Source of the DNA: Cercospora beticola | Taxonomy: Eukaryota > Ascomycota > Dothideomycetes > Mycosphaerellales > Mycosphaerellaceae | Direction of reading: 5' to 3' | Assembly: GCF_033473495.1 (NCBI RefSeq) | Contig: NC_088938.1 | Location: forward strand, 2,604,001-2,668,000 | Length of the DNA: 64,000 bases | Part shown: piece by piece, positions 9,987-63,300 of the stretch | How the letters are laid out: each line of letters opens with the position of its first letter | Position numbering within the stretch: the first letter of the stretch is position 1 | The notes under the pieces: model-generated | Databases searched by the model: none | Told to the model about the DNA's origin: nothing | Seen by the model: only the letters and a program-made list of their open reading frames with translations | Made by a program: the position numbers and the translations under genes

Positions 9987-12248
9987 TCAAATCCCTGAAT
10001 CAGTCTGCAAGTACTCCGCTTGCTCCGGATAGTAGTCTCTCCAAGTATTACATTGTTGGTTGAAATCTGGCGTGATGGGGTCGATATCCAACATTGTTTG
10101 CTGGCTTTCGATGAACTGAACTGCGAAACCATCGTCTGCGTGCCATGCCTATGGAACACTTTTGTCAGTATTTGTGTTATCAATGATGTAGAGCATAAGA
10201 GCGCGACTTACGATATGACAATGCAGCAACCACGCTCCAGGGTTGTTCGTCTCAAATGCAATCGCCAGCCAGCCATTTGTGGGCAGCATGGCAACATCTC
10301 TCCTCATGGGGTTCTCATAGTTCAGGTTCTGTCTGTCGGCATCTGTCCAAGCACTTTCTCCAGCTCCCAAGACGTAGAAGTCATGGCCGTGAAGATGAAT
10401 TGGATGCGGGATGTTGACTGTGAATGGCGAGCCAGGTGCTTCGGTGATAACCCAGTATGTCCAGCGATTGGCATTTGGCAGGGAGATTGCATTCGCGCGA
10501 TCGGGCCAGTTGGAGAAAGAGCGATCGTTTTGGATCTCACCAAGAGTAGGTTGCGACCAGTCGACGCGGAGAGGTGTGCCATTGACTTGCCAGAAGATGG
10601 TCAAAAGGCCGTTGGCATCGGTGGACTGGTTGATTGCTGTGGCGAGTGTCTCAAACGTGGGGATATTGTTCGCAGGAACGTAAGAGTTCCAGTAGGGAAC
10701 AAGTCCGCGTTCATCTGTACAGCGCTGAGCGTAGTTATGCGCTGTGCTAATTGGGGTCTCGTTCTCGTGGCCTTCATATGAGAAGATGGAGCGAATGTTG
10801 CCGTTGTTGAAGTTGGAGCCGCAGCCGGCGGTGTCTTGAGAGTCAGCGCGGAACCAGTAGCTTCCCGGGCTTTGGTCGGCGGTGATGATCACATCGTATC
10901 GTTGCCCGATCCCAAGGAAGACGCTCGTGGCGTTGTAAGGCACCAGAGGAACGAAGTCAGCAGCGATTACAGTCATGGTGTGGCCGTCCAGAGAGAACGT
11001 GAAGTGATTGTCGACGCCAGTGTTGATGAGACGAAGACGGTGGCGTCTGCCAGCTTTGAGAATCGTGCGCGCGTATGATCCTCCCGAGTTGGATGTCATT
11101 GTGCCATTTATGAGACCATTGTCTGCAGTGGGTGCCAGGGAGTTTCGATGTCTGGCGAGAAAGGACGTTGTGCCGACGGTAGGATAGTACCAATCAGTAA
11201 TGGGAAGGGGTCCAAGATCCTCGTCGTAGTCTGCCGTTGCGGGTCCGTACACGACGATAGGTCCAATGATACCATCACCATACTGGTTGCTGAAATGAGA
11301 ATGGTACCAGCTCGTTCCGTATTGAGTCGCAATGAACGTGTAAGTCTTGCTGCCTCCAGGAACTATGGGACACTCGGTGACACCTGGAACGCCGTCCTGG
11401 CCATTGTTGTGCCACATGCGCAATCCGTGCCAGTGAATCGAAGTTCCGTTGTTCGGGAGCTCATTGTGAACAGTGACTTGAATGGTGTCACCCCAGTTTG
11501 CATAGATGGTAGGTCCTGGATATTGTCCGTTGATGGCATACACCAAACGCTCGAAGCCGTCAGGAGACATGGTAGTGTTGGTGATGGTGAAGTCGTAGGA
11601 CACAGTTCGACCGGTCTCTGGCCAATCCTGGTCAAAATCGGTATCAATATCGAAGCCACCACTCCAGCAGCCTCTCGAGTTGGGACCATTCGTGCATGTT
11701 GCTGTCGGCGCGCTACTGGTGGTCGCCGCAGTGCTCGTGGGGGCTCGAATTACAGTAGTCACTGACGGCAGAGTGTTTGACTGCCATGTGTCGGACACGC
11801 TTGCGCTGCCGCCATTGGTGGGTACAGTGAAAGAATGATCTGGATCCGCTTCCCAAGTGACGGTGCCATCGGTGCCAATTTTGATATACTTGTAGCTGAA
11901 ACTTGTGCCTGCTGGAATGCTGATGGTACCTGACCACAGAGGCCTATCGTTTGTGTACTGCGAAGCACTAAGTGCCACGCCGTTGCTCGTGTCCCAGTTG
12001 CCAAGTTGAGCGATTGACCCAACGACTTGTACTGACTCGCCCCAGGCAGTTTGAGCAAGCTGGTTGAAAGTGACCTGAACACTTGCCGTTTGTCGTCGTC
12101 TGATGTCTCTGCTCTGGCGAGAGACAAGTCTCTCAGATGTGAATGGCGTCGCGTGCTGTGTGGTCCCGGGTTCGTGTAACCGCTCGACTGGAATGACCGA
12201 GGCAGTGGCCAGAGCCAGAAAATTAAGGATAGCGTAGTGTAACCTCAT
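9987..12248 (-). CDS. Secreted laccase-type multicopper oxidase with N-terminal CBM20
   Basis: Exons 10212-12248 and 9987-10148 (63-nt intron, donor GTAAGT), 732 residues. Order: signal peptide (1-18), dibasic propeptide end near 50, a CBM20 starch-binding module (about 56-156, with VVGSIAQLGNW and PLWSGTISIPAGTSFSYKYI), a Ser/Thr/Ala linker, then three cupredoxin domains. All four copper-ligand blocks are present: IHWHGL (271-276), WYHSHF (314-319), HPIHLHGH (615-622) and HCHIAWHADDGF across the splice. The axial position after the last His is Phe, a non-Met ligand. The C-terminus is DSGI, the tail that plugs the trinuclear-site tunnel in ascomycete laccases, which confirms the second exon. 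Function: extracellular oxidation of phenols with reduction of O2; the CBM20 suggests anchoring to alpha-glucans. Confidence 0.92.
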
Positions 12249-14645
12249 GGTGGCTGCAGTGGTTGCAAAACGAAGTCAGAGCTTCAACGAGAGTATTAGT
12301 ACTGCGCACTTGGGAGCGCGTGAATGGCGATTGTGCTGTCGCCTGTGTCTAGTGAATGTATAAAAAATTTATTAACGAAAGGGATCACGCATAGGTGAAG
12401 GTGCGTGGACAAGCAGTGTTTGCCATGTCATGCCAGGAGGCGGACTATGTATTCAATCAATCTTTTTGAGCTGTGGAGACTGTGGTCGAGCACGCACGTA
12501 TCAGGAAAATCCGTGGTGGCGATAACCCACTATGGCTCCTTGGCCATTGCTCCACTCGGTTCTTCTGCCATGGAAATGTGACACGGATGTGCGCGAGGAG
12601 GGGCGCTCAAGATAGAAGTGCTGTGTGACGGGTAGTTGCCATTGTCGGACCAAGAAATCTCGCTTCTCGCGCTGTGCCGTGCTGCGTGCAGTCATTTTTG
12701 AGGTCTTGCGCATGTCGTTGCCGGGATTGAGAGTAAGGAGAGGTGTAGGATAGAGTGCTACACGAGCGCTTGTCGGGCCGGATGTGGCTGTATGATGCCT
12801 GTCGCCGAGCCAGGATGGCAAGCCAAAGTCGACGTATCCGCGAGACCACTACCAGTTGTAATCGGTTCACCACTTGCGATCCGGTGCTGCGATACTGTCA
12901 ATCGGTTTCAAGCCTTCTGTTTGTTCACCTCGGCGAATCCTATATCGTGTGGGAATGCCGGACAGTGGATTTTGCAGCTTCATCGAAGAGATCTACGGCG
13001 CGTCCACGGCGAGGTCCACACCCCTGTCCAACCCACAATGTCATCGGACCTTGACTCCGATTCGATGTGGCTGGTTCTACAAGGTGCGTCAGCGATATGC
13101 ATATCCGCAGGGGTCGCCGAACGAGCACAAAATCGATGGTCAATTCCTCACCGACAAACATTCACCTCCTCGTGCTGGCACACCATGTTGCGCACCAGCT
13201 CGCACGAGACGACCACGCGATGTCACCATCTGAATGCAGCTGTGCGATGATTGTACGCGTATCTCGCGACTGGTGGACTGCATCCTTCCAATAGCGGAAG
13301 CATCAAGGTGGGTGGGACTCGACGACTAGATTGATCCCGTTACATGCCGCGCGAGCGAATCGCCTACAGCAATGCTCTCCGAGTCTCGGACACTACGATG
13401 TCGGCACGTGGTCGGGTGTAGAGCGAAACACGTCGTGCTCTCGGTCCATGGGTCGTCGCGTGGGAGGCTTGATGGTCATGGCAGTGGCGGGAAAGGAAGC
13501 AGATATATTGACCAAGCAAGCGTGCCCGCCATCATTGCCAGGGGCCAAGCTGTGGAATGTTCGCAGTGGACGGCATATGAATTGTCTGGAGATGGTGATA
13601 TAAGATGGTGGCTGCGCTCGCCTAGGCGTCCATTGTGCTTCGCTTGCGCTTTCTGCAGCGCTGCGCGTGACCGCATGACATCTGCTGCCACGTGCAGGAA
13701 TATCGTGCACCGGTGCCAGATCCGTGGACCAGGGGTGGATGTTGATGAGACTTGACGAGTGTCTCACTTCCAAACTGATACAAAACAGATCTCAGATCGA
13801 GGCCAAAATTAGCTCTGAGCGATGAACAACAACCAAATGGGGGACAGAGCACCTTCCTCTTCCAGGCACACGCACTTACTCCTGCCTGCCCTTCCGATCA
13901 CCTTGCGATGTGACTTCCTCTGCAGGCCGAACATTGTTTCCAGTGATTCCCTTTGGCTGGCCGCACTATCGCAGGAACGACAAGAAGAGGATGAATCAAC
14001 TTACAACCCATCAGATACCATAATGAAGCGAAGTCTAGTAGGGAAGAAGATACCGCGAGACCTCAATACCCATCCTGACGTCTCCTTCGATAGGTCCAAC
14101 ACTCGTGGGTCTCTCGATGTAGGACACGCCTGCCGTGTAAGCGGAACATCCCGACTTCACCTCTCCAGCTCTAAAGCTTCTCTGTGCCAGAAGTCCTCTG
14201 CACTCCAGATCACAAATCGTGAGGTCCAGCTTGTGTAATCGAACACGATAATCCTCTTGCAGTACTGTACCAAGGTGCATTCACGAATCTGCACACATCG
14301 AAAAGGTTGATAGAACTGCTCCGGGAACCTTCACCCATTCAAGCGCAGTCATTTTCGCAGAGCAAACCGTGGATTCGGGACTTCAGACAGGACTGACTAG
14401 TTTATCACATGCTGATGTCTGAATGCTTTCCACCACATTCACCAATGCACAATGCAATCAGCACGTGCAGCATGGTCGGAAAAATTGTTTGCCTGGCTGC
14501 CCACAGAGCACATGCACCAGCATTTAACAACTTCTGTCCGCCGCATCTTCGATCCCTCTCGAACCCATAACATCTTGAGAAGCTCCGAACGCCAAATCTC
14601 ACAGAAATCCAACTCATCTCAAAGGCCAATCGACTCACAACCACA
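12249..14645. other. 2.4 kb gene-poor interval
   Basis: No reading frame here shows a recognisable domain, signal peptide or splice structure that I would defend. The longest frames (for example 13822-14238 on the plus strand, 138 codons) have biased composition and no family features. It contains the laccase promoter and, near 14.6 kb, the 5' region of the small Cys-rich gene. Confidence 0.5.
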
Positions 14646-56601: not shown

Positions 56602-57693
56602 TTAGATGTTGATCGGGATGCAAGGAAGACCAACGTTGATGTCACCCTATTGGAATAGGTCAGCTTGAGTTTGCAGCAGTTAGAGGGAGCTGATCTTACG
56701 TTTTGGGTGGTAGGGCAGCAGAAGCTGTTTCCAGCGTTGCAGCCGTTTCCGAGAGCAGCGGCGAGGACTGGGATCTGGAGAGAGCAAGAGCCACCAAGGA
56801 CAAGGCTGAGAGCTGAACCTTCGCTGGCAGTGTTGCAGCAAGAGACGGCGTTGCCGACACCGCACTGGCTGGCAATGGCAGTTCCGTTGTTGGCAGGCTC
56901 GTCGACAATCACCTCGTCGTCGTCAGTTGGGTCGACAACATCTGGAACCTCGTCGGCCTCATCGTCGACCGGTGGCTCCACCTCGTCTGGGAGTGGGACC
57001 TCTGGAAGATCCTCCTCTGGGTAGAGAGGCTCAGCACGGCCCTTGGGGTAGGCAGCCGCGGCATCGTAGGTTGGCTTGGCTGGGTCGTAGTACTATCAGG
57101 ATTGTTAGCAAACGCTGAAGCTGAGAATAAATCGAAAAGCTTACGTGGGTCAGAGTTGGGTAGGCTGGCTTGTCCTGCACTGGGTATGGCTTGTCTTCTG
57201 GCTTGTACACAGGGTAGGCCTCCTTGGCTGGGTAGGTCTCCCTACAGGCCACTGCATTAGCATGTTTACTGGAGATCACTGCGCGATAGACTTACTTTGG
57301 CTCGTAGACTGGCTTGGACTCATAGACCGGGGTTGGCTTATAGACAGGCTTGTCCTCGTGGTAGACCGGCTTGTCCTCGTGGTAGACCGGCTTGTCCTCG
57401 TGGTAGACCGGCTTGTCCTCGTGGTAGACCGGCTTGTCCTCGTGGTAGACCGGCTTGTCCTCGTGGTAGACTGGCTTTGCCTCGCCGTAGGTGGCCGGCT
57501 TCTTGTCGTTGCCGTATCCGTATTGACGCCTGGCGACACCGCCGAGGCCTCCGAGGGCACCGAGAGGGCCACCCTTTCCGCTGGCAGCGCCAGTGGCAGT
57601 CTTGAGGAGACCGCCGGCAACGTTGCCCTGAGGAGCGGGAGCAGCAAGGGCGCCAGATGCCAGAGCGGCGATGAGAGCAGCGCTGAAATGCAT
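56602..57693 (-). CDS. Long class I-type hydrophobin with Pro/Tyr repeats
   Basis: Exons 57296-57693, 57145-57241, 56700-57092 and 56602-56646 give 310 residues, far longer than the usual 100-150. Order: signal peptide (MHFSAALIAALASGALA), a Gly-rich stretch, six copies of KPVYHED, more Pro/Tyr repeats (PVYKPEDKPYPVQDKP), an acidic linker (DEADEVPDVVDPTDDDEVIV), then the hydrophobin domain. All eight Cys are present in the hydrophobin order: QCGVGNAVSCC, GGSC, NGCNAGNSFCC, and the last Cys in VGLPCIPINI, supplied by the 15-codon final exon. Hydrophobins self-assemble at air-water or wall surfaces; the extension could reach into or crosslink with the wall. It is divergent from the first UstYa gene. 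Confidence 0.85.
57349..57474. repeat. 21-bp minisatellite, six units
   Basis: Six head-to-tail 21-bp units inside hydrophobin exon 1, encoding KPVYHED on the minus strand. The first five are identical in the listed sequence and the last differs at one base. Such near-identity suggests recent expansion and likely length variation between strains. Confidence 0.95.
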
Positions 57694-58498: not shown

Positions 58499-59439
58499 AT
58501 GGCGATGAAGGAAGCGAGTCTGCAGAAGGCGCCGCTGCTGGTGGAAGAGGAGAGCGAAGGGGAGAAAGAGAAGTCATGGCAGGTCTTACTGAGAAGTCCT
58601 AGGACAGACCGGCAGCGTGCTGTGCGACTGTACTGCCTGCTCGGTCTCAATGTAATCCTGTTCCTGTCCTCCCTGGCGCTCTACATCAGAACGGTTTCGT
58701 TGCAGGGCAAGGAGACTGCCACTCTGCCACCATGTGTCCACCGGACGGACATGGAGGATGCTCGCTCGGCGATCGAATACGAGGAACAGGAGTACACTGG
58801 GGCGCTGGTCTACGATCCGGAAACGCATACGGCTGGCCGCAGACACGATGCTGATGTAGAGTACTTTGGCCCGCCGACACCACTCCTCGACGAGAACTGG
58901 CACCAATTGCTGCATGGTAGGTCTGCCGATGTAGTGAGCTTCTGCACGACTAACCCGTCTTTTCTTCAGGCGAGATACCGACCATGACAGATGAGGAGGC
59001 TGAGCCCTACTTGCCTGAGCTGCTGCGCATCCCAAAGACGAAGTCTTACCACTTTGAGTACGATGCTCCCAAGCTTGGTGGAGTGAGCGATGCTGACTTT
59101 GAGAACAGGCCCGATATGTTCCACACCCTGCACTGCCTGAACGCTGTACGCCTGGAAGTATCGAAATCGCTTTACAACACGACCTACGTCTCACAACATC
59201 ACTCCACTCACGGCAACTTCCCCGAAGGATGGGATGCAACGCATCTCGAACACTGCCTCGATCGACTGCGCCAGAGTGTTATGTGCCATGGAGACTTGAC
59301 GCCCTCACCGCTTTATTATTGGAAAGGATTCAATCTTGCATTGGGCAGAACTGGGAAGAGAACGTGCCGGAAGTGGGAGCCGATCAGAAAATGGATGGAT
59401 GAACGTGGTAAGAGAGGGAATGTATTGGAGTCATTCTAG
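58499..59439 (+). CDS. UstYa-family (DUF3328) oxidase, gene 1
   Basis: Exons 58499-58916 and 58970-59439 give 295 residues. A cytosolic N-terminus is followed by a membrane anchor (LYCLLGLNVILFLSSLALYI) and the DUF3328 domain. Both hallmark HxxHC motifs are intact: MFHTLHCLNAVR and THLEHCLDRLRQ, followed by VMCHGDLTPSPLYYW. UstYa-type proteins are the oxidative cyclases of fungal dikaritin RiPPs (ustiloxin, phomopsin, asperipin) and also act on some other peptides; they work in the secretory pathway. It converges with a second UstYa gene, and a repeat-peptide gene lies 2.5 kb beyond its stop. Confidence 0.88.
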
Positions 59440-60290
59440 ATGCTAGGTATAACCACAATGCAACAATGTTTGCACCGGTGGCCGCTGCAATGCGAGCATA
59501 TCCCAGCATAAGCTATACGCGCCAAGCCATTGACGCTGCTACCCAAGACGCATCGAGACTGATCGCTCTTGCACACCAGCGATGATGCCAGCCCAGGATC
59601 AAACGCCACCACAGGACCAAGGAATGGATCGGATACCACAATACGAGTGACTGCCTTTGATGATGCAGCCGCGACCCGACAGCCTGCGCGCATAGAGCAT
59701 TGTCAACCCCAGAGCTTCTCAGCTATTAGCGCAGCCAGCTTCACCTTGGACTGCTCCAATACGGACTGATGTGTGGTCACGCTCATCTTCAATGTCGAAT
59801 ACGAATCTTGGCTACTTAGCTTTCAAATGTACCTTGGCATTGCAGCACGCCATCTCCCGTCTGCATATGTATAGCTGCCGTCAAGCTCAGCTTGCGGCTT
59901 CGCGGATTGCAAGGATCCCGTGCAAGCGACCACATTAGAGGACAGCACAGCGCAGCGCAGCACAACACAACACCGCCCCATTAGCATGCGAGAAGTGCGC
60001 CGAAAACAGCAGCTCTACCAAACCGCGGGGCAAAACAAAGCGTCTCTCGAAAATCAGGCCTCGGCGATCTGACACGTGAAGGCTAGATTTGTGGGTAGCA
60101 ACAAGGATATCATATCGGAGGCGCGGCAGAATACGAAAAAGCGACCTCCATCACGTCAGCGCTTGCTACACTCTCACAATCGTCGAGCTGAAGGTTGAGC
60201 TGAGAGGATGTCTTGGACCGCAGCGAGATCGAAACTTATTATTGGCTACGCTAGAACGCTGCACAGTCTATAGACACGACGGAAGCGTCT
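59440..60290. other. Interval between convergent UstYa-like genes
   Basis: About 850 bp containing the two 3' ends. No coding sequence is supported. A short run of direct repeats with core gcacagcgcagcgcagcaca lies near 59944. Confidence 0.4.
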
Positions 60291-61249
60291 TCATGGAACA
60301 TGGTCCAGGATCTTGTCTCCTGGCCTTGGGCTTTGGAGAAAATCATCTGGAACCTCCATTGGGAGCTGCCGCTCCTCCGCCCATTGCCGTATGGCATCGA
60401 AGTTCTTGCAGACATGTTTTGTGTTGAAGTCCACAAATGCCTCGGGCTCCTCCTGGTCTTTTGGCTGCCACCAGACCTGTCCGAGCACTCCGATATCAAT
60501 CTGGCACATCAGCTGCTGGCGAATGATATCGAGACAGTGTGCTGCAACGACAATTAGCTCGAATTAAGCTGTGAAAAGTGACAGCAACACTCACAGACGT
60601 GCAGTTGCACTATAGGCTCACTGTTGACGAATGCGCCCTCTCCTTTCGCTCGATAATAGTCGATGTTGTAATACAACGACTTGCGGACCAGGTTCAGACA
60701 ATGGAGCTGATGCAAGCCTTCGACATTTGCAGGATAGCCGCCACCGTACTTTTCTTTGATTTGGACTTGTTCTGGTCTCAGCCCAACGGAAGAAGCGATA
60801 TCTGCCGGAACACGAATTCCTCGGTCTACGGGCACTGGTCAGAGGATGTGGCGAATCTCTGAAAAAGCTCACTTACAATCAATGCCCAGCGCAGCCCAGG
60901 CTGCGTCAGTCTCGTTGTTGCCCTTTTTGCGATAGATGTTCTCCTCCATGAAATTTCCATCGAACCGAGTTTCGTGAAATGTGATATCCACATCTCTGGT
61001 AATCGGCGAAGGTGCGAAACTTTGGGAGAATGCAGGCCCTCTATTTTGCCAGCTCAGAACAACCACCACTGCGACTCCCGCTGACAGACCGATTGTCACT
61101 GCCAGAAGAACTGCGAAAAGACAAGCCCATCCGATGTTCTCTTTTCGCAGTAATTGTTTTCTTCGATGATTTAGCGGAATCTGGCCAGAGTCGCTGTAAT
61201 CATCGTCTGAAGGCCGTCCCTCGCTTTTCATCAGAGGTGTTGATGACAT
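60291..61249 (-). CDS. UstYa-family (DUF3328) oxidase, gene 2
   Basis: Exons 60877-61249, 60595-60825 and 60291-60541 give 284 residues; all junctions are GT-AG and in phase. A single membrane helix (WACLFAVLLAVTIGLSAGVA) precedes the domain. Typical blocks: WAALGIDYRGIRVPADIA (across the first splice), GLHQLHCLNLVRKSLYY and the second HxxHC, HVSHCLDIIRQQLMCQ, which is formed only by splicing. The end has WWQPKDQEEPEAFVDFNTKH, usual for the family. Its start lies 745 bp from the start of the divergent repeat-peptide gene, so shared control is likely. It differs strongly from gene 1, so the pair is not a recent duplication. Confidence 0.9.
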
Positions 61250-61994
61250 TGTCTTTGCAAGAATTTATGTCGTGGGAACGAAAGACGACAAACATGGGCA
61301 CGGGACAAGTTTGACAGCTCTCGGCTGAGCTCCAATATTTGGATCTTGCATGACGCTTCCTTCTGGACTTTTGGCTCTTGGAACACGAGCTCCATTTTTG
61401 GATGTAAGATCTAGCTCCTGCAAGCTTCTCACACACTCCCAGGTAGCATCGGCTGAGCTGTACACGGCGGAGGAGGCGTTAGCTAGACCTGCAGGACCGT
61501 GCGTCGCTAGCGCGGATCCTTAGCGTCTTTGGTTCCGGAGTGCCGTGCTCTACGGCTTGGACGAAGCCACGACCACGACCAAGCGATAAACTTAGTATCG
61601 ATGTACCTCAATACAGCAACGATACTGGCGAGTCGTTGTCATCATGCTGCATCCTGTCGTATAGGATTGCCCCGCGCCAACGCGGCGGCTTGGAGGCACG
61701 CAGCGGCGGAGGCGAGGGTGCGTCCACAAGGTTTCGATAGTCATTGAGGTGGTCACGAAGGGCGAGACGGGCATGACGTGCTGAGAGACCGACCTGAGGA
61801 TGAGCTGGACGCCCGCGGCGAGGTAGGCGAGGTACGTGGGCTGACTGGCGGTTCATAAAAGAGGTGACCGCTCCCACGCTGAAATGAGAAGTACCATCGA
61901 ACAAACCAGTCTCTCAGCATCAGAACAAGATTCTCGATATTCCAATCGTTCTTCCCCTGCTCAAGACTCAGCCATCACTCCTACTTCGTTCAAG
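61250..61994. promoter_or_regulatory. Shared divergent promoter region, UstYa gene 2 / repeat-peptide gene
   Basis: 745 bp between the two start codons, transcribed outwards. A CATAAAAG sequence about 140 bp before the repeat-peptide ATG could act as a TATA element for that gene. No open frame here is supported. Confidence 0.5.
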
Positions 61995-63300
61995 ATGAAG
62001 GCCACCATCCTCGCCCTTTTCCTCTCCGCCACCGGTGCCCTCGCCGCTCCAGTCGCTGAGCCAGAAGCTGAAGCCGCTGGTGCCCAGACCTACGAACACT
62101 ATGGCAAAGTGAGCAGCTATGATTTCAGCAGAAAGGTCCTTGAATAAGTGCAGTACTGACAAAAGTGGAACAATAGTACGGGTTCGTGGACCAGACACTG
62201 AAATTTAGTCTTCTAATTTGATGCTGACAATTAATCGCAACGATTAGCAAATACGGGCACGTTGAGCCACTGGGAATTCTCCTTGTTGATGCTGATGCTG
62301 ACTGTTCCTTCTAGCAACTACGGGTAGATCAAGCCCAGTCCTCCGACGAATATCCAGACTGATCTTGACCTCCCAGCAAATACCCAAAATTAGAACATTA
62401 CGGCAGTGAGACACTACTACGAAGCTTGGTCGTTGATGGAAGCGCTCTAACAGTCCGCTAGCCTACGAACACTACAAACGCGAACCAGAAGCAGAGGCCG
62501 AGCCCGAAGCCGCAGGTGCACAGAAATATGAGCGCAAGTCAAAATCCCCACACGATTTGATGCAATCCCTTTGCTGATTCGAGAACACAGACTACGGAAA
62601 GGTGAGCACGACACTCAGCTTCTGAGCTACGATCCTCCAGGACTCCAACGAGTGTGATGCTAAATGATGCTTGTTGAATCAGTACGGTTCCTACGGGTGA
62701 GTTGCACATCCTTTGATTATTCACAAAGAGTGCTGCTGATGCTAATTGTGTACGAAAAGTAAATATCCTCACCTGGAACATTACGCTTGTGAGTTTTTCG
62801 AGGCTTTGTGGCATGGTGTTTCGATTTGCCTCTAACCAACATTCAGCCTATGGCCATTACAAGCGAGAACTCGACGAGATCGATGCCGTCCTTGATGCTG
62901 TCTATGCTCTCAAGGAGAAGCGAGAGGCAACAAAGTACGAGCGTGAGTAAAACTCTGGTATTCCAGTGGAAGAACTTGGCTAATAGCTCTGCACAGACTA
63001 CGGCAAGGTAGGCCAACCTGAACTCGTGATAACCTGACAATTTTGATACTAAACAACCTTAAAAACAGTACGGCAAGTACGGAAACTACGGTAGTATGTC
63101 GATTGCCTTCCACCGAGCTTGATGATGAATCTGTCACTAACACTGCTCCAGAATATCCTGAGCTGGAACACTACGCTTGTAAGCTGGAACGAAAGTGCTT
63201 TGAGGAAACGTTCCCTAATAACGCCGCAGCGTACGGCCATTATGCTCGAGAAGCAAACGCAGCCCCAGAGGCCGCTCCTGAGCCAGAGGCAGAGTCTTAG
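61995..63300 (+). CDS. Secreted Tyr/Gly/His repeat protein with kexin sites: candidate RiPP precursor
   Basis: A model of 14 exons: 61995-62108, 62177-62181, 62248-62256, 62315-62323, 62377-62405, 62462-62533, 62591-62601, 62683-62696, 62760-62788, 62847-62942, 62997-63007, 63069-63093, 63152-63178 and 63230-63300. It gives 173 residues and stays in frame. The signal peptide is MKATILALFLSATGALAA. Then come three repeats, each running YEHYGK, YG-x-YG, KYP-x-LEHY, (Y)GHYKR or YEHYKR. Lys-Arg sites and spacers such as EPEAEAEPEA (like Ste13-trimmed pheromone leaders) separate them. No Cys or Trp. The last repeat ends HYAR, without Lys-Arg. Donors are strong except in repeat 1 (GTTCGT, GCACGT, GTAGAT), so its tiny exons are the least certain. 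The function is not known; a peptide precursor is inferred from processing sites and neighbours. Confidence 0.65.
62091..63249 (+). repeat. Three intron-containing tandem repeat units
   Basis: Units at about 62091-62481, 62524-62866 and 62933-63249. Each encodes the same Tyr-rich peptide and is cut by introns at matching places: after YGK (phase 0 in all three), after YGxYG, and after KYPxLEHY plus one residue (phase 1 in all three). Introns have diverged far more than exons. Confidence 0.7.

Follow-up and report, generated by a model that had tools for sequence, protein, structure and literature searches.

Does the tyrosine-rich repeat protein encoded near one end of a 64,000-nucleotide stretch of Cercospora beticola DNA serve as the substrate of an UstYa enzyme, and if so, of which one? 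The stretch analysed (NC_088938.1, positions 2,604,001 to 2,668,000; hereafter the window) corresponds to C4:2604001-2668000 in our scan of the 36.07-Mb genome, where C1, C2 and so on stand for the others of its 10 contigs; all coordinates without such a prefix are those of the window. A preliminary description of this locus had proposed that two UstYa-family (DUF3328) proteins convert the repeat protein into a ribosomally synthesized and post-translationally modified peptide (RiPP) with cross-linked tyrosines. According to the sections of PMC12048977 that were consulted, DUF3328/UstYa proteins with a double HxxHC motif are a marker of dikaritins, and roles for UstYa in dikaritin pathways have been published.

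Both UstYa genes are present as described. UstYa-A lies on the forward strand at 58499-59439 (two exons, intron 58917-58969) and UstYa-B on the reverse strand at 60291-61249 (three exons, 60877-61249, 60595-60825 and 60291-60541). They matched PF11807 with E-values of 1.4e-34 (120 bits) and 1.9e-57 (195 bits), respectively, both exceeding the curated cut-off of 25, and the double HxxHC motif is intact in each: HTLHC (59122-59136) and HLEHC (59242-59256) in UstYa-A, HQLHC (60698-60712) and HVSHC (read across intron 2) in UstYa-B. The repeat gene, which we call YG for the Tyr-Gly period of its product, occupies 61995-63300 on the forward strand and encodes 173 amino acids in 14 predicted exons. 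It stands head-to-head with UstYa-B, their start codons 745 bp apart, and the divergent region between them (61250-61994) is a candidate shared promoter.

We propose, with a probability of roughly 0.6, that UstYa-B and the YG gene are inherited together as a dedicated divergent pair and constitute a RiPP-like unit in which UstYa-B would oxidise the tyrosines of the YG product. The precursor would enter the secretory pathway, where a kexin-type protease is predicted to cut after three Lys-Arg sites and the Glu-Ala/Glu-Pro stretches would probably be trimmed. By analogy with the published dikaritin enzymes, membrane-anchored UstYa-B would oxidise the tyrosines of the YGxYG stretches, most likely yielding Tyr cross-links within or between peptides. 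Expression, splicing and cleavage of the precursor are steps that we infer.

Divergent UstYa-B/YG pairs in the genome

The genome contains three UstYa-B-like genes on three contigs (in the window, at C1:965930 and at C2:1582253), and each is divergent from a secreted-looking YG gene. Start codons are separated by 647 bp in the C1 pair and by 605 bp in the C2 pair, so that both have a counterpart of the candidate promoter region. The paralogues resemble UstYa-B at 60-75% (C1, by exon) and 48-59% (C2) identity. Their partners are a secreted-looking protein with two Cys-rich repeats that terminates in GYGSYGTYEKYPTHYASYGKYDYKTYQNYGSYKKE (C1) and a 92-residue secreted-looking protein containing EGYGKYASYGTYKGTYNNYPGLG (C2). 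A phase-0 intron between K and Y of GKY is common to the window and C2 YG genes, and one of phase 1 in the Ser of HYASYG to those of the window and C1; these coincidences of position and phase argue that the YG parts are homologous. The coupling of an adjacent UstYa gene to a secreted precursor that is repetitive and carries dibasic sites, as put forward in the preliminary description, is hence stronger than a single locus had indicated. What is new is the presence of three such head-to-head pairs in one genome; the YG family itself is widespread and unnamed.

In a tree of UstYa-B homologues, the window and C1 genes grouped with Septoria and Cercospora genes (fork 100/99), while genes of Pseudocercospora (90/83) and Zymoseptoria tritici (92/92) fell outside this group with less support, and the C2 gene was weakly placed elsewhere among the homologues. 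Branches are very long, and the tree was used solely for the close grouping around the window and C1 genes. Best supported is the view that this pair retained its divergent arrangement across at least one duplication (that between window and C1) and probably across an older one as well (C2).

Genome-wide, at least 63 PF11807 matches were found and merged at 10 kb into 34 loci. A DNA pattern for Y[G/A]xY[G/A]xY matched 27 times, and the three matches within 2 kb of a UstYa locus were those of the three pairs; the fourth-nearest was 22 kb from any UstYa locus. None of the other 31 UstYa loci had an uninterrupted YG motif within 10 kb, although these negatives are not absolute, since motifs split by introns escape a DNA pattern. 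Flanks were examined at 10 of the 33 loci other than that of the window (nine over ~20 kb, one over 7.5 kb). The chance of a pattern match within 3 kb of both start codons outside the window is ~2e-5, and the chance of three out of three pairings among 34 loci is 1.7e-4 (1.9e-3 for two out of two, leaving out the window), all of these being post hoc estimates.

Because all three UstYa-B-like genes have a head-to-head YG partner and no uninterrupted motif lies near the 31 other loci, the sequence comparison supports UstYa-B, and not UstYa-A, as the putative partner of the YG gene. The proposal that both UstYa genes belong to the system found no support: nothing links UstYa-A to the YG gene, its own-genome matches are distant (identity at most 41%), and around the C1 and C2 pairs no further PF11807 match occurs within 10 kb.

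The C1 and C2 YG genes are not kexin-repeat proteins, so that the YG stretch, rather than the kexin repeat, is the constant feature of the three pairs. The kexin repeat named in the preliminary description is found in the window but not in the related genes. A paralogue of the C1 partner at C5:450.6-452.0k on the reverse strand (best match E 3.3e-8) is a multi-copy Cys-rich secreted protein that has a GPI-like hydrophobic end (by eye) in place of the YG tail, and no UstYa locus occurs within 150 kb of it. Tentatively, and with more doubt than belief, we suggest that UstYa-B-like enzymes are oxidases for a portable YGxYG module and not toxin-makers. The module would come as a kexin-released peptide in the window, as a lone short segment in the C2 protein and as a C-terminal tail in the C1 protein, and its Tyr cross-links would couple secreted proteins to one another or to the cell surface. 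If true, this would take UstYa beyond small cyclic peptides, and should the C1 tail prove a genuine substrate, the chemistry would reach larger secreted proteins.

An intron-rich candidate precursor gene

The exons of the YG gene were placed at 61995-62108, 62177-62181, 62248-62256, 62315-62323, 62377-62405, 62462-62533, 62591-62601, 62683-62696, 62760-62788, 62847-62942, 62997-63007, 63069-63093, 63152-63178 and 63230-63300. The chain is a splicing prediction from the DNA, in which the border of exon 12 was set with the public model RHO25_006695 (P0001). The 13 introns measure 51-81 nt. The product has 27 Tyr residues, three Lys-Arg sites and a signal-like N-terminus (judged by eye), and it contains three copies of the pattern YEHYGK..KYPxLEHYxxYxHY. 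Unit 1, YEHYGKYGKYGNYGKYPKLEHYGTYEHYKRE (62091-62484), is cut by introns 1-5 and contains one 5-nt and two 9-nt exons; unit 2, YEHYGKYGSYGKYPHLEHYASYGHYKRE (62527-62869), is cut by introns 6-9, and unit 3, YEHYGKYGKYGNYGKYPELEHYASYGHYARE (62936-63252), by introns 10-13. The adjoining secreted protein of three repeats with Lys-Arg spacers is therefore there as first described, yet its units (YEH.. to ..RE) are of 31, 28 and 31 residues, not about 26. Lys-Arg follows unit 1 (62476-62481, aa 61, succeeded by EPEAEAEPEA) and unit 2 (62861-62866, aa 103), and a third site precedes unit 3 (62918-62923, aa 122, KEKR before EAT).

Within 62109-62376, introns separate successive YG triplets of unit 1 that are uninterrupted in unit 3. 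Two of the exons so produced are symmetric and of 9 nt, and skipping them would alter the peptide three residues at a time.

So fragmented a gene could be a decaying pseudogene, its many introns an artefact of a forced reading frame. The splice sites of unit 1 are indeed weak, introns 2-4 having weak or GC donors, and neither of the two public C. beticola models covers the gene: RHO25_006695 (104 aa) matches its 3' part with two introns read through, and CB0940_04790 (P0202, 89 aa) matches its 5' end and seemingly reads intron 2 into a stop, so that both are fragments. We nevertheless regard decay as very improbable. All 13 introns have GT-AG (11) or GC-AG (2) borders, 12 of them contain an in-frame stop, and the junctions yield the same peptide in three units; unit 1, for instance, spells YGKYGNYGKYP across three tiny exons, and unit 3, with fewer interruptions, has the identical string. 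Most codon changes between units are synonymous, with 14 synonymous against 5 replacing differences for units 1 and 2, 13 against 5 for units 1 and 3, and 7 against 3 for units 2 and 3. By the NG86 method, the replacement rate (dN) was 0.10-0.12, and the synonymous rate (dS) was 0.69 for units 2 and 3 and saturated, hence not estimable, for the other two pairs. Introns at corresponding places of units 2 and 3 had a similarity of 0.53-0.57, against a median of 0.53 over all intron pairs. Three of the four exon pieces compared differed at 1-3 aligned bases, gaps aside, and the fourth, the variable end, at 6 of 21. With unit differences mostly synonymous and intron divergence at background level, the YG gene seems to be selected for the peptide it encodes, its units apparently under purifying selection.

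YG and UstYa-B families in other fungi

Relatives of the YG precursor exist in other fungi. A search with the precursor returned 21 proteins at E<=1, and a profile search of the family returned 109 at E<=0.01, of which 40 were examined. Most of these 40 are small proteins that start with a signal-like segment and contain YGxYGxY blocks, frequently accompanied by YKR or REAEPEPEA; among the 40 are some fused or broken models. The genera Zymoseptoria, Rachicladosporium, Glarea, Amylocarpus, Fusarium, Geoglossum, Xylographa and Exophiala are among the named sources. The profile search assigns secreted YGxYG proteins from Fusarium, Glarea, Xylographa and Geoglossum, among others, to the family of the window gene. 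The database matches bear no functional name, and no Pfam family scored above its cut-off in the YG proteins tested. Searches of the open-access PubMed Central literature retrieved neither any of six YG motif strings nor anything combining Cercospora beticola with Kex2-processed.

Three of the 21 matches to the precursor were regarded as unrelated. P0020 carries ATPase domains; P0015 and P0016 resemble capsule tyrosine kinases of bacteria, with YGKYGKYG-like Tyr-rich tails, a probable case of convergence. The UniRef name of the Cryphonectria YG protein P0212 starts with 'Mating factor alp', which hints at a mix-up with pheromone precursors.

UstYa-B has 494 relatives at E<=1e-10. Among the 120 listed, identity was 43-97%, and beyond Cercospora and its near kin mostly 47-65% in local alignment, across many genera of Pezizomycotina. 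Among solved structures, none was related in sequence to UstYa-B at E 1. A Foldseek search with a model of the C. kikuchii protein (97% identical to UstYa-B, mean pLDDT 80) gave no match at E<=0.001 (92 up to E 10, the best at 0.82). Neither comparison shed light on the mechanism. The pairing suggests a specific substrate for a widely occurring UstYa type for which we found none assigned, the candidate being the widespread YG peptide family.

Outside Cercospora, one hint of linkage comes from Z. tritici, in which the YG repeat protein (P0157) and the UstYa-B homologue (P0028) are both on 1,546,792-bp contigs. Several observations count against a dedicated pair. The YG gene of Glarea lozoyensis (GLAREA_12949) and its UstYa-B homologue (GLAREA_04213) sit on contigs that differ in length, and the tags of the Rachicladosporium genes (B0A51_07261 for YG, B0A51_06508 for UstYa-B) are far apart; both comparisons concern the UstYa-B homologue listed for the fungus, and a different UstYa gene may lie close by. 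A repeat gene conserved in relatives away from any UstYa gene, which the preliminary description had named as evidence that would tell against it, may thus be partly present in these two fungi. UstYa-B homologues are also found in Aspergillus, with no named Aspergillus YG protein among the matches listed.

Within C. beticola, the long-branched C8:1143k shares a weak fork (84/81) with the UstYa-B-like genes, so that the border of the group is partly our choice. This gene is 42% identical to UstYa-B and has no YG motif in the flanks examined; if it is counted, the pairing becomes three out of four. It and C1:580k, at 42-43%, rank next in the genome by score after the C1 and C2 paralogues, and one stretch of 61 residues at C5:296k comes to 50%. 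Nor is the YG pattern enriched: the 27 matches compare with 79 for the reversed control, and its strict form with 8 against 38, which makes genome-wide counts uninformative and leaves only the positions to count. Six of the eight strict matches were judged by eye not to be secreted YG genes, and of the other 19 relaxed matches, the C2 one was inspected. An own-genome search with two natural YG relatives gave nothing useful and missed the window gene too; its negatives therefore mean little. Finally, besides the non-kexin partners at C1 and C2, unit 3 of the window gene lacks a C-terminal dibasic site and terminates in Ala-Arg.

The apparently unlinked homologues would suit a YG protein that is an unmodified wall, adhesive or signalling peptide, its UstYa neighbour being incidental or having another substrate. 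So would the UstYa gene being the sole tailoring enzyme among the open reading frames (ORFs) tested, and the 78% of surveyed kexin-processed repeat proteins (KEPs) without a DUF3328 neighbour in the consulted sections of PMC7329392. We think this unlikely in view of the pairing of all three UstYa-B-like genes, the 31 other loci free of an uninterrupted motif within 10 kb, and the common intron positions that argue for homologous partners.

Known peptide systems and neighbouring genes

Another reading is that the locus is a typical dikaritin cluster, its Tyr cores short and both of its UstYa genes in use. Like the precursors of ustiloxin, phomopsin and asperipin-2a, the YG precursor is secreted-looking and repetitive, with dibasic sites, beside UstYa genes bearing the double HxxHC motif (two of them here), and it has a leader with repeated core motifs in the form of a signal-like start (by eye) and three units. 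Dikaritin cores (ustiloxin, phomopsin, asperipin) are short, whereas the conserved YG block is of ~30 residues with a YGx period; short cores in the YG precursor were rejected on sequence, and the earlier remark that its repeat does not resemble them was borne out. The related YG genes of the same genome, moreover, are not kexin repeats.

Neither tyrosinase nor methyltransferase domains, nor a peptidase domain above cut-off, occurred in the 20 longer ORFs tested (nine spanning 43.6-57.1 kb, the other 11 from the 20 kb that follow the window; short exons were left out), extending what had been noted for the locus itself. One Peptidase_S9 match (16.5 bits against a cut-off of 22.6) fell in an alpha/beta hydrolase at 55.2-56.2 kb, and one sugar-transporter exon was seen at 51.8 kb. 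The consulted sections of PMC12048977 cite a five-gene definition of dikaritins, which includes tyrosinase, methyltransferase, and transporter or peptidase genes, and report functional clusters, described later, without some of these members. Given the long YG-periodic block, the outcome for these ORFs and the lack of another PF11807 match within 10 kb of the C1 and C2 pairs, we consider an ordinary dikaritin cluster improbable.

Two further systems resemble the YG precursor. The epichloecyclin precursor GigA, likened here by description, is secreted, has imperfect 27-residue repeats and a DUF3328 neighbour; it differs in that its cluster has its own kexin gene and yields cyclic nona- and octapeptides (consulted sections of PMC7317419). 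KEPs have in common with the YG precursor a signal peptide (in YG, the signal-like start), tandem repeats and Lys-Arg sites (consulted sections of PMC7329392 and PMC6339444). Their definition asks for a signal peptide and three or more repeats, each of 8 aa or longer, set between dibasic sites; the YG precursor has three repeats parted by three Lys-Arg, none of them behind unit 3. The 2020 KEP survey names no YG family in its abstract or its sections 6, 7 and 13 (PMC7329392). That survey was, by its consulted sections, built on annotated proteins, and a YG gene modelled in fragments would likely escape it. An intron-shredded precursor can in this way escape annotation-based RiPP mining.

The same survey, in those sections, places 1758 of 7878 KEPs (22%) near DUF3328 genes, and reports Tyr in 65.6% of their repeats against 38.2% elsewhere (PMC7329392). 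In C. beticola, repeat proteins that look secreted (by eye), contain Tyr and have dibasic sites were seen at four of nine other UstYa loci (~20 kb each), and the C1 pair is another one of the nine. The repeats are QYVWSP (30 copies, C4:726850-728533, reverse strand, near a group of UstYa genes), DYQYLV (five copies, C9:90.5k), FLGRTW (six copies, C3:401k) and EVGLTY (six copies in two frames, C9:620.8-621.5k). UstYa-repeat pairs are therefore common here, matching the survey as far as it was consulted.

UstYa-A has a divergent neighbour of its own. A hydrophobin-like secreted protein, Tyr-rich and with six tandem HEDKPVY repeats and an eight-Cys pattern by eye, is encoded on the reverse strand at 56602-57693, head-to-head with UstYa-A at 805 bp; Pfam gave no match for it at E 0.01. 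Its layout is suggestive only, and the protein may possibly be the UstYa-A partner and a second UstYa substrate. Elsewhere in the window, at 10152-12275 on the reverse strand, a multicopper oxidase and a CBM20 starch-binding domain are joined in one frame, to our knowledge an unusual pairing.

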